Of a stretch of 64,000 nt of DNA, positions 44,609 through 48,179 are shown in pieces. Under the pieces are notes generated by a model. The model made no database searches. It saw only the letters and a program-made list of their open reading frames with translations, and was not told where the DNA came from. This stretch comes from an uncultured Flaviramulus sp. (GTDB lineage Bacteria; Bacteroidota; Bacteroidia; Flavobacteriales; Flavobacteriaceae). Location of the stretch: positions 1-64,000 of the forward strand of contig CANKVS010000005.1 in the NCBI GenBank assembly GCA_947487155.1, written 5' to 3'. Position 1 is the stretch's first letter, and each line of letters starts with the position of its first letter. The translations under genes and the position numbers were made by a program.

Positions 44609-44803
44609 TTAAGCGTCTTCATTTTCATCACTATCATTTTCATCCTTATGTTTGCTAGGAATATTTTTAGAGATTCTATAAATACCTATCATAAGTATTA
44701 TAATACCTCCAATTAGTACATACTGATTTTGTTCGGTTCCTGCTTTAGAATACATAGCAACCGCTGCGCCAATAATTATTAATAAATAGTTTACATTTTT
44801 CAT
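44609..44803 (-). CDS. Small two-pass membrane protein
   Basis: 64 residues with two hydrophobic segments (YLLIIIGAAVAMYS and YVLIGGIIILMIGIYRI) and an acidic, charged tail (KHKDENDSDENEDA). I do not recognise a named family. It starts the two-gene unit with the Smr gene (two-base gap). Confidence 0.75.
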   Translation of the reverse strand: MKNVNYLLIIIGAAVAMYSKAGTEQNQYVLIGGIIILMIGIYRISKNIPSKHKDENDSDENEDA

Positions 44804-44920: not shown

Positions 44921-44951
44921 TTGTTGTGTATGCAGAATATTTATATATTTG
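44921..44951 (+). promoter_or_regulatory. Promoter of the T9SS cargo gene (TTG, N20, TATATTTG)
   Basis: TTG (44921-44923), 20 bases, TATATTTG (44944-44951): an exact consensus match 27 bases before ATG 44979. The longest frame begins with the TTG inside this box, which rules that start out. Confidence 0.8.
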
Positions 44952-44978
44952 CAGCGTAAATTGTTAGTCTCTCAAAAT

Positions 44979-46739
44979 ATGCATTATCGTTTTACTCTTA
45001 TTATTGCCTTTATTTGCAATGTATCATTCTCACAGCTTTCCGTAAGGAATGATTACTATGTCTTTGTTAATGATGAAGTTGTTTTTGTAGAAGATGATGT
45101 AAACCTGAATGAAACAGACAGTAGAATATATCTTCGTAGTGAGGGACAACTTATACAAGGCTCTGGTACAACAGGAAATTCTGGCGATGGCGAATTAAGT
45201 GTTTACCAAGAAGCTAATGTAGATGAATATGAATATAATTATTGGTGCTCTCCTATTATTGACCAATCGAGTAATATGTTTGGTATTTCTTTATTAAATG
45301 ATGCAACTAGCATTACAGCATCAACACCTGCCACATACAACCATAATGGCAATTACAACGGAACATCTAGTCCATTAAATATTGAACCGTATTGGATTTG
45401 GAAATATATTGCTTCTGATGAGTATTCAGAGTGGATACATGTGTTGGGCAATACAACTATAAATCCTGGAGAAGGTTTTACCATGAAAGGCACTTCAGGT
45501 TCTGGTAGCGCTCAACAATTCGATTATAGAGGAAAACCTAATACTGGTACTTTAGAGATTGATGTTTTAGATAATCAATTCACTTTGGTAGGTAACCCCT
45601 ACCCGTCTGCACTAGATGCATTAGCCTATATTCACGATACCGAAAACGCGAGTGTAATTACTGGCACGTTATACTATTGGGAGCAAAATCCAACTATCAA
45701 TTCTCATATTTTAAGAGATTACGATGGTGGTTATGCGACTTATACCATTAATGCCGCTGGAGATGTAGAAACTTATATCCCTGCCACATTTAGCACATAT
45801 AACAACGATGGCACTGTAAATGGTACTAGCGGTACGCCTCCATCTGGAAAAACAGCAAGACGCTATATTCCCATAGGGCAAGGATTTATGGTTGAAGGTA
45901 CAAGCACAGTTGGAACACCAAAAGTTAAAGCGAAAAATAGTCATCGTGTTTTTATAAAAGAAACAAACCCAGATAGTGAATTTTTTAAATCTACAAATAC
46001 AAAAGGAAAAGTTAGTCGCACAAACACAAGTTTTTCTATTGTTCCTGATGATTATAAACGTTTTAGATTAAATATAGATTTTAATAATACGTATACACGC
46101 CAAATAGTTGAAACATTTCATAATTCTGCCACTACAGGCTTTGATTACGGATTAGAATCTGAAATTAATGAAGGGGATATTTTAAATTCTGATGCCTATT
46201 GGAACGCTGAAAATTCATCATATATTGCTGAAGCATTACCGTTTGATGACACTTTAAAAATACCTTTAGCTGTTAAGGTTTCTGAAAATATGCCAGTTAA
46301 AATAAGAATGGTTGATATTCAAAATTTTGAAAGTAACCAACCTATTTATATTCATGATTTAGAAAACGATGCATTTGTCGATTTAAAAGCTCAAGATTTT
46401 AATATAAATCTCGATGCTGGTAGTTATACCAATAGGTTTGAAATTACATTTAGCAAAAACAATAGTTTAAGTATTGCTGACGAGGTGCTTGAAGGATTTA
46501 ACGTGTTTCAGAATAACAAAACATCAAAACTTAATCTATTTAATCCAAACTTCTTAGACATAGAAAGCTTTAGCTTATTTGATATTTCTGGCAAACGTGT
46601 TTTAAACGAACAGATTTCTTCAAATAAAAAATCGTATAATTATTCAACCAACGCGCTTAGTGATGGCGTATATGTTGCAAAAATAAGTTTATCTAACAAT
46701 CATGTTTTTAGTAAAAAGGTGATTATCAGTAATAGGTAA
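44979..46739 (+). CDS. Secreted protein with type IX secretion (type A) sorting domain
   Basis: 586 residues. The signal peptide (RFTLIIAFICNVSFSQ) leads into a large beta-rich region, and the last 75 residues (SLFDISGKRVLNEQIS ... ALSDGVYVAKISLSNNHVFSKKVII) form a Por secretion tail (T9SS type A), so the protein should cross the outer membrane through the type IX system, of which PorQ is encoded at 48880. The middle has no catalytic motif that I recognise; it has GFTMKGTSGSGSAQ-like turns seen in large flavobacterial surface proteins. The start is set by the promoter. Confidence 0.88.
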   Translation: MHYRFTLIIAFICNVSFSQLSVRNDYYVFVNDEVVFVEDDVNLNETDSRIYLRSEGQLIQGSGTTGNSGDGELSVYQEANVDEYEYNYWCSPIIDQSSNMFGISLLNDATSITASTPATYNHNGNYNGTSSPLNIEPYWIWKYIASDEYSEWIHVLGNTTINPGEGFTMKGTSGSGSAQQFDYRGKPNTGTLEIDVLDNQFTLVGNPYPSALDALAYIHDTENASVITGTLYYWEQNPTINSHILRDYDGGYATYTINAAGDVETYIPATFSTYNNDGTVNGTSGTPPSGKTARRYIPIGQGFMVEGTSTVGTPKVKAKNSHRVFIKETNPDSEFFKSTNTKGKVSRTNTSFSIVPDDYKRFRLNIDFNNTYTRQIVETFHNSATTGFDYGLESEINEGDILNSDAYWNAENSSYIAEALPFDDTLKIPLAVKVSENMPVKIRMVDIQNFESNQPIYIHDLENDAFVDLKAQDFNINLDAGSYTNRFEITFSKNNSLSIADEVLEGFNVFQNNKTSKLNLFNPNFLDIESFSLFDISGKRVLNEQISSNKKSYNYSTNALSDGVYVAKISLSNNHVFSKKVIISNR

Positions 46740-46830: not shown

Positions 46831-47100
46831 ATGGAAAACAAACCAGCAAGACCTAATAGCTATTTAGCCCTAGCCATTATAAGTACTATATTATGTTGTT
46901 TACCAACAGGTATTGTGAGTATTATTTATGCTACAAAAGTTAACAGCACTTATGAAGATGGTAAATACGAAGAGGCTAATAGAGCATCAAAAAATGCCAA
47001 AACTTGGGGACTAGTATCAATTGGTCTTGCCTTTTTTGGAATTATTATTTATGTTTTAATTTTTGGAGTTGCTTTTTTAGGAGCTATTAGTGGTGCATAA
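46831..47100 (+). CDS. CD225/dispanin family membrane protein
   Basis: 89 residues with two hydrophobic segments (SYLALAIISTILCCLPTGIVS, then LVSIGLAFFGIIIYVLIFGV) separated by a short loop (YATKVNSTYEDGKYEEANRASKNAKTW). The CCLP turn before the second half of the first segment and the A-S-K-x-A-K-x-W pattern match the CD225/dispanin family, which includes the interferon-induced IFITM proteins. Bacterial members have no known role. It opens a four-gene cluster and overlaps the next gene by 11 bases. Confidence 0.87.
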   Translation: MENKPARPNSYLALAIISTILCCLPTGIVSIIYATKVNSTYEDGKYEEANRASKNAKTWGLVSIGLAFFGIIIYVLIFGVAFLGAISGA

Positions 47101-47500
47101 ATACTTAAAACGCCTTTTAATAGCTTTAAGTCTATTAGTTTTAGGTGTCATTATGGTGTTTTATTTTAATTACAACCCATCGGATTATAACCTTTTTCCT
47201 AAATGTCCATTTTATACAATGACAGGTCTGTATTGCCCAGGTTGTGGAAGCCAAAGGGCTATACACCAAATATTGCATGGACATATTCTTAAGGGTTTAA
47301 GTCATAATTTCTTAATTATATTATTGATTTTCGTTTTAAGTTGCGATGCTATTATTTTATTAATGAATAGTATTCTAAAAAGGAAATTAAAAAACATCTT
47401 ACATAAACCTATAATTACTTATTTAATACTTGCATTAGTTATTTTATTTTGGTTTTTAAGAAACATTGATTTATATCCTTTTAGTATTTTAGCTCCCTAA
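47090..47500 (+). CDS. DUF2752 domain-containing membrane protein
   Basis: 136 residues with about three transmembrane segments. The hallmark C-P-x-Y-x-M-x-G-x-Y-C-P-G-C-G-S-Q-R motif lies near residues 41-60, followed by AIHQILHGHILKG. The start is a GTG (47090 or 47093) overlapping the end of the CD225 gene, which suggests translational coupling; the next ATG would remove the first membrane segment. The function of DUF2752 is unknown. The Cys cluster suggests a metal or redox site. Confidence 0.85.
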   Translation: MVHKYLKRLLIALSLLVLGVIMVFYFNYNPSDYNLFPKCPFYTMTGLYCPGCGSQRAIHQILHGHILKGLSHNFLIILLIFVLSCDAIILLMNSILKRKLKNILHKPIITYLILALVILFWFLRNIDLYPFSILAP

Positions 47501-47512
47501 CAAACCCTATTT

Positions 47513-47797
47513 ATGCAGCTTCTTGAAGACTATATGCTTCCCTGTTTAAACAAAAAACTATTTGGTATAGAATGTATGGGTTGCGGTATGCAAAGATCTG
47601 TTGTATTAATTTTTCAAGGCAACTTTGTTGATGCTTTTTATATGTATCCAGCAATTTACACGCTTATGCTTCTTTTTGCAGTCATTATAATTAATCTATT
47701 TAAAAAATTTAAGTATGCGAATAAAATAATTAGCAGCCTTTCAATACTTTCTATTCTAATTATTATCACTAGTTTTATTATCAAGAAAATTAATTAA
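47513..47797 (+). CDS. DUF2752 domain-containing membrane protein, short form
   Basis: 94 residues with a shorter version of the same motif (CLNKKLFGIECMGCGMQRSV) at 11-30 and two following membrane segments. It lies 12 bases after the first DUF2752 gene, so the pair probably arose by duplication and divergence. Confidence 0.83.
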   Translation: MQLLEDYMLPCLNKKLFGIECMGCGMQRSVVLIFQGNFVDAFYMYPAIYTLMLLFAVIIINLFKKFKYANKIISSLSILSILIIITSFIIKKIN

Positions 47798-47806
47798 AAC
47801 AAACTT

Positions 47807-48124
47807 ATGAAGAAACAACTTAATCCAACTTTAGTTTATGTATTATCAATATTAGGATTTCTTTGCTGTTGCATTGGAGGTGCTTTTTTATCTATTCCTG
47901 CATATTTTATTGCAAATAACAAAATAAAAGACGCTGAACTTAATCCAGATGATTATGAAGGAAGTTTAAAAGCAATGAAAATAGCGAAAATAGTTGCTTT
48001 AGTATCTTCAATTATTAATTTAATAGTTTTAATTAGAATTATTTACATTCTAACTACTAGCGATTTAGATGAATTACAAAGAGTTTTTGAAGAAGCTTTT
48101 GAACAAGCAAAGCAACAACAATAA
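47807..48124 (+). CDS. CCC-motif membrane protein
   Basis: 105 residues with two hydrophobic segments and three successive cysteines (FLCCCIGG) in the first. It resembles the CCC-motif membrane proteins found beside CD225 and DUF2752 genes in flavobacteria. The charged tail (ELQRVFEEAFEQAKQQQ) is helical. It ends the cluster and is followed by a hairpin shared with cmk. Confidence 0.8.
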   Translation: MKKQLNPTLVYVLSILGFLCCCIGGAFLSIPAYFIANNKIKDAELNPDDYEGSLKAMKIAKIVALVSSIINLIVLIRIIYILTTSDLDELQRVFEEAFEQAKQQQ

Positions 48125-48142: not shown

Positions 48143-48179
48143 AAAAGTCGTTTGAAAATTTATTTTTTAGACGGCTTTT
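48143..48179. terminator. Bidirectional hairpin overlapping the cmk 3' end
   Basis: AAAAGTCGTTT pairs with AGACGGCTTTT (11 positions, two G-T pairs) around a loop. The right arm lies inside the last codons of cmk. It probably ends the CCC-motif gene transcript and cmk. Confidence 0.6.

Follow-up and report, generated by a model that had tools for sequence, protein, structure and literature searches.

Animal members of the CD225 (dispanin) family have been studied as stand-alone proteins, and a descent of IFITM proteins in animals from bacterial CD225 proteins, the occurrence of which in bacteria is already known, has been proposed (PMC3282796). The cysteines of the animal proteins are S-palmitoylated (PMC3282796, PMC4488726). 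In animals, relatives of CD225 restrict viral fusion, and the mycobacterial members have a moderate restricting effect on influenza when expressed in human cells (PMC4488726). The bacterial CD225 proteins examined here differ from this stand-alone picture in that a DUF2752 gene almost always follows directly downstream of theirs. DUF2752 (PF10825) is labelled in Pfam as a protein of unknown function, and it was mentioned nowhere among 5.39 million open papers, a collection that has most subscription journals and preprints outside its scope. Similarly, NF040945 (CCC motif membrane protein) carries an NCBIfam description without a link to CD225 or DUF2752, whereas here it appears as a CD225 relative paired with DUF2752.

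The window analysed in this study, 64,000 nucleotides from an uncultured Flaviramulus sp., contains a row of four genes from these families. The best explanation of the whole, which we consider probable, is that they encode two DUF2752:hairpin pairs that would serve envelope homeostasis and not phage defence. The proteins themselves belong to known families. Their partnership and the link between CCC and CD225 appear undescribed within the open literature searched, and the adjacency to DUF2752 could have been seen by anyone browsing gene-neighbourhood databases.

Gene content of the locus

Positions 46831-48124 hold four co-directional open reading frames on the + strand, all encoding short membrane proteins, as an earlier sequence-only reading of this DNA had reported. 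The reported overlap of the first two spans 11 bases (47090-47100), the second gene starting at a GTG within the first; gaps of 12 and 9 bases follow. The features are as follows.

46831..47100, + strand: CD225/dispanin-family two-helix membrane protein, 89 aa (module A, gene 1)
47090..47500, + strand: long DUF2752 protein, 136 aa, GTG start (module A, gene 2)
47513..47797, + strand: short DUF2752 protein, 94 aa (module B, gene 1)
47807..48124, + strand: CCC-motif membrane protein, 105 aa (module B, gene 2)
48143..48179, + strand: terminator-like inverted repeat from a consensus scan, between the CCC gene and a convergent cytidylate kinase gene

Since homologues occur in conserved order in dozens of genera, chance open reading frames are ruled out. 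The repeat at 48143-48179 is a possible end of a four-gene transcript, a weak reading because the scan found one such repeat against 0.6 expected by chance; matches in a sigma-70 promoter scan were at chance level only. The source genome contains one CD225, two DUF2752 and one CCC gene in total, and all four lie at this locus.

Curated libraries bore out the proposed assignment of the proteins to CD225, DUF2752 (twice) and CCC. In a Pfam scan the first protein was a member of PF04505 (87.7 bits, E=5.4e-25; cut-off 27.1), with hydrophobic segments at about residues 16-32 and 61-77. It shares the CC pair, the GIV-I motif, the loop and the second transmembrane helix with dispanins such as IFITM3, PRRT1 and PRRT2, and the CD225 profile matched the PRRT1 chain in the PDB (E=5e-17). 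The pair, C22-C23, lies at the first hydrophobic segment and is conserved in the alignment; conserved cysteines are thus present in all four proteins, and not in three as had been claimed. The long and short DUF2752 proteins matched PF10825 with 61.3 bits (E=9.1e-17) and 65.4 bits (E=4.7e-18), respectively, against a cut-off of 27, and both retain all three cysteines of that family.

The CCC protein is a member of NF040945 (95.6 bits, cut-off 65) and, at 16.6 bits against PF04505 (cut-off 27.1), is not a member proper of the latter. Comparison of the CCC and CD225 alignments gave an hhalign probability of 97.8 (E=1e-12, 69 columns), which identifies the CCC protein, on profile evidence, as a CD225 relative outside PF04505. 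The idea of CCC as an unrelated fourth family could not be maintained: the cluster comprises two DUF2752 and two CD225-type proteins, and both modules are versions of DUF2752 plus a CD225-type hairpin.

Two further observations concern CCC genes elsewhere. In-frame stop codons interrupt those at G061:C1:3354525-3354825 and G092:C11:40495-40782, which suggests that module B is decaying in some lineages. At L024, L027, L030 and L034 a CCC-type protein of greater length (157-209 aa) is encoded with no DUF2752, in another conserved operon that lies near a UvrC-like gene; the nearest Pfam family to the L027 protein is MpPF26, below the cut-off.

Pairing within the Flavobacteriaceae

We searched 120 Flavobacteriaceae genomes, one per genus, for the DUF2752, CCC and CD225 families, counting genes of these families as partners if they shared a strand and lay within 700 bp of one another. 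DUF2752 was present in 106 genomes, CCC in 93 and CD225 in 31. Nearly every gene had a partner, which for CD225 and CCC was a DUF2752 gene: 32 of the 33 CD225 genes, 105 of the 109 CCC genes and 121 of the 132 DUF2752 genes. The commonest architecture was DUF2752-CCC (63), followed by CD225-DUF2752 (17), DUF2752-CCC-CCC (15) and DUF2752-CCC-CD225-DUF2752 (9), with a few rarer ones. In these arrangements the long DUF2752 follows CD225, and CCC follows the short DUF2752. The co-occurrence of CD225 and DUF2752 in this sample (P about 0.01) is weak evidence, because DUF2752 is nearly universal in the family, and it is the adjacency that carries the argument.

The median distance from CD225 to DUF2752 was -8, with 60 of 100 pairs overlapping, which suggests that the two genes are translationally coupled; from DUF2752 to CCC it was +11. 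Two apparent CD225-DUF2752 fusions (L254 and L263; 231 and 246 aa) were rejected as start-codon artefacts, their N-terminal parts matching no CD225 profile.

The sequence-only reading had proposed that the four families form one set and their products one membrane complex, and a survey of co-occurrence was suggested as its test. The set is not inherited as one unit, as the unequal counts above (106, 93 and 31 of 120 genera) and the frequent separation of the modules indicate. Of the 21 genomes with both modules, 11 have them side by side and 10 at separate loci, and on this evidence the idea of the four genes as a single co-occurring unit was rejected. In most genera only module B is present, and in several only module A. 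Where the two adjoin in close relatives, for which genome contigs were scanned with the CD225 alignment as query, the order is A-B in Flaviramulus, Flavivirga, Confluentibacter and Seonamhaeicola, and B-A in Winogradskyella, Psychroserpens, Xanthomarina and Mangrovimonas. Because the modules are often apart and their order flips, each behaves as a unit: A (CD225 and long DUF2752) and B (short DUF2752 and CCC) stand side by side in the window. A single complex of four subunits would fit the tight gene row in the window and the proximity of the same four types in 11 family genomes, among them close relatives with the A-B and with the B-A order. However, such a complex sits poorly with the ten genomes in which the modules are apart, with the genera that have only one of them, and with the inverted order in, for example, Winogradskyella and Psychroserpens relative to Flavivirga, Confluentibacter and Seonamhaeicola, and we regard it as quite improbable. 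What stands of the original proposal is a plausible membrane complex, with good support for the pairing, in the form of two DUF2752:hairpin pairs and not of a four-part assembly.

Pairing in other bacteria

Among 247 Bacteroidota genomes, DUF2752 was found in 129 and CD225 in three (the source genome included), in all three beside DUF2752. At one of the loci (L106) the CD225 gene beside DUF2752 had been hidden by an over-long open reading frame call. CD225 was found in 12 of 119 Actinomycetota genomes and DUF2752 in 33; every one of the 12 has DUF2752 as well (hypergeometric P about 4e-8), with CD225 directly upstream of it in 10. In Nonomuraea (L306, NZ_LT559118.1) a DUF4190-like gene, CD225 and DUF2752 stand in a row, and a clostridial-looking fragment (L307, MT839860.1) carries an ABC transporter, CD225, DUF2752 and pyrimidine-synthesis-like genes. 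CD225-DUF2752 pairs occur in at least three phyla: Bacteroidota, Actinomycetota and Bacillota.

DUF2752 also has other small membrane partners. The commonest in the Bacteroidota set is TM2 (PF05154), found within 700 bp of 76 of the 121 DUF2752 genes listed. Like the hairpins of the window, TM2 is a small two-helix protein encoded beside DUF2752 in many Bacteroidota and some Actinomycetota, but it is absent from the window modules and its alignment has one conserved cysteine column only, with no CC motif. Among 150 TM2 genes listed for the phylum, 76 were paired with DUF2752 and 74 had no adjacent DUF2752; about half are thus unpaired, so TM2 can act alone. Examples confirmed with Pfam place DUF4234, RDD and DUF5684 proteins beside further Bacteroidota DUF2752 genes. 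A count of 23 DUF2752 genes without a partner among these genomes was discarded as an overestimate, several of these having DUF4234, RDD or DUF5684 partners. Actinobacterial partners include TM2, DUF4234, RDD-like and DUF4870-like proteins, and one Streptomyces record has an annotated, overlapping TM2-DUF2752 pair.

Some of these loci are longer. Operons of the order TM2-DUF2752-DUF4870 (Tic20-like)-M48 peptidase occur in several Bacteroidota (L123, L124, L153 and L028; the third protein of the L028 operon has no Pfam match of its own), and at L102 the genes after the TM2-DUF2752 pair encode PadR and PspC. The DUF4870/HOTT proteins thus encoded in some DUF2752 operons are small membrane proteins of the Tic20 superfamily, and their MamF-like branch mediates organelle protein targeting (PMC11628618). 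Together, the DUF4870/M48 and PadR/PspC operons and the targeting role of the MamF-like proteins are the best leads and tentatively favour a function in membrane-protein or envelope homeostasis. These M48, DUF4870 and PspC links stem from TM2-type loci, not from the module types of the window.

A sharper version of this explanation would make DUF2752 and its hairpin a small insertase-like assembly factor, or an aid to targeting, with a role akin to that of Tic20/HOTT. The DUF4870 genes in DUF2752 operons and the targeting activity of the MamF-like branch speak for it, but the window modules lack DUF4870 and none of the four window proteins matched PF09685 (DUF4870) in the Pfam scan, so that DUF4870 is only a lead for function. 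The proposed factor has no known client, and a Foldseek search of the PDB returned no fold match between DUF2752 and any insertase. We therefore think it unlikely, if worth keeping in mind.

The cysteine site of DUF2752

The long DUF2752 protein has three predicted transmembrane helices and the site C39..C49-x2-C52-G53-x2-R56; the short protein does not have the first helix and carries the same site as C11..C21-x2-C24-G25-x2-R28. This type of site (C-x11-C-x2-C-G-x2-R) is kept in every partner class. In 173 Bacteroidota proteins, one of which is short of the first column, the first cysteine was present in 172 of 172 and the second in 173 of 173, with nearly fixed spacing between them. The third position was cysteine in 168; the other five proteins have an acidic residue there (Asp in three, Glu in two), and none of them has Ser, Ala or Gly. 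The positive-inside rule would place the N-terminus of the long protein inside and its cysteine region outside, with a basic cytoplasmic loop between helices 2 and 3.

The confident AlphaFold2 model of this protein (mean pLDDT 94.4) predicts three long helices, with short helices around the cysteines. A Foldseek search of this model against the PDB and BFVD gave noise only (E above 3, TM below 0.3), and a sequence search found no solved sequence resembling DUF2752. The CCC protein was left out of the fold search because its AlphaFold model was poor (pLDDT 68.6).

Such a site could in principle serve thiol chemistry, with DUF2752 acting as a membrane thiol-disulfide oxidoreductase or an acyl carrier or transferase on the CC or CCC cysteines of its partner. 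Strict conservation of C..CxxCG..R, the CC or CCC motifs conserved in the two partners at this locus and the S-palmitoylation of animal CD225 (PMC3282796, PMC4488726) are all consistent with this. Yet the DUF2752 cysteines are kept with other partner types, such as TM2, that have no CC motif, and exclusive replacement of the third by Asp or Glu would be odd for a redox cysteine; we consider thiol chemistry improbable. Acidic residues would suit a metal ligand more than a redox thiol. As four of the five sequences come from one family, and the metal argument rests on these five substitutions, we take this as a hint only. On balance we lean slightly towards a site that binds metal rather than one that is redox-active. 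The earlier suggestion of metal handling would accordingly survive in a weaker sense, as a possible structural metal site in DUF2752, and not in any stronger one.

Partner type also follows the phylogeny of DUF2752. Mapped onto the tree, which has few columns and many open forks, it requires 20 changes, compared with 69.5 in shuffles. The short window protein falls in a set of 21 rows, 19 of which are CCC-partnered.

A model for DUF2752 and its partners

The model that we propose starts from what was computed here: gene identity, CCC-CD225 homology, near-strict pairing, gene overlap, clustering of partners on the tree, the cysteine site and the genomic setting. The locus would consist of two tandem units of DUF2752 plus a CD225-superfamily hairpin, the members of each pair being made together and most likely forming an obligate inner-membrane complex. 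We consider a physical complex of DUF2752 with its hairpin likely, noting that near-universal adjacency could also mean shared regulation without physical contact. DUF2752 would be the constant subunit, anchored by its transmembrane helices, with its three-cysteine knuckle on the predicted outer (periplasmic) face, probably as a metal-stabilised structural site. The hairpin (CD225 or CCC here; TM2, DUF4234 and others elsewhere) would be the exchangeable subunit that sets the membrane process or client. The service itself would probably lie in envelope homeostasis, that is, in helping to assemble, stabilise or quality-control membrane proteins or the bilayer itself, a role that we put forward tentatively.

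If correct, the role of bacterial CD225 proteins should be sought in a pair and not in a single protein, and a near-obligate partner in three phyla offers a direct handle on it. DUF2752 would also link the DUF2752, CCC, TM2, DUF4234 and DUF4870 families through one shared subunit, so that findings on any one pair would bear on the rest. More speculatively, and with the balance in our view tipped somewhat against it, DUF2752 may be the constant subunit of widespread, undescribed two-component complexes with CD225, CCC, TM2, DUF4234, RDD and DUF4870 hairpins, and the dispanin ancestors of IFITM may have been half of such a complex, whose partner was lost on transfer to eukaryotes.

Genomic setting

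Phage exclusion had been among the functions suggested for the locus, with presence in defence islands as a check. In many genera module B occupies a conserved chromosomal site, preceded by cysteine-desulfurase-like and Smr-domain genes and followed by ornithine-aminotransferase-like and RNA-methyltransferase-like genes. Within one subclade, separate copies of module A have a formyltetrahydrofolate-cycloligase-like gene on one side and a lipoprotein-signal-peptidase-like gene on the other. (Smr was assigned by library scan; all other neighbours were named from sequence.) A scan of 98 module A neighbours against PADLOC families gave stray generic matches only, with no enrichment, and the four window proteins had no convincing match in PADLOC or PHROGs, the one weak PADLOC match (E=6e-4) being to the long DUF2752.

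The loci are likewise nearly absent from mobile and viral records. No CD225 relative was found in the viral contigs set. Five plasmid records contain DUF2752, all predicted non-mobilizable, and the one plasmid record with CD225 (NZ_LT559118.1) is chromosome-sized at 11.85 Mb though listed as a plasmid. The sole phage record with CD225, MT839860.1 ('Bacteriophage sp.'), was set aside, as it looks like a clostridial chromosome fragment. The loci are chromosomal and lie among housekeeping genes. Family genomes without DUF2752 are mostly small. Taken together, the housekeeping setting, the near-absence from mobile and viral records and the absence of DUF2752 mainly from small genomes fit a dispensable, vertically inherited function, not a defence island.

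A defence system in which CD225 keeps phage DNA from crossing the membrane or blocks fusion-like steps, assisted by the other three proteins, would be in keeping with the antiviral activity of CD225 relatives in animals, with the moderate restriction of influenza by the mycobacterial proteins (PMC4488726) and with the patchy distribution of CD225 (31 of 120 genera). Against it stand the conserved housekeeping neighbours, the lack of convincing PADLOC, PHROGs or viral matches and of any genuine phage record, and the near-universal presence of module B in the family, where DUF2752 is missing mainly from small genomes. We judge defence very improbable; the partnership of CD225 and CCC with DUF2752 points instead to an ordinary but undescribed function of the cell envelope.

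The flanks of the locus have conserved features of their own. Directly upstream, at 44949-46739, is a protein with a type IX secretion (T9SS) sorting tail, homologues of which immediately precede module A or B in about a dozen further genera. Further upstream, a 64-aa membrane protein (44609-44803, - strand) adjoins the Smr-domain gene and is conserved in about 25 of the sampled loci; its sole Pfam match is a sub-threshold one to TMEM230/134.
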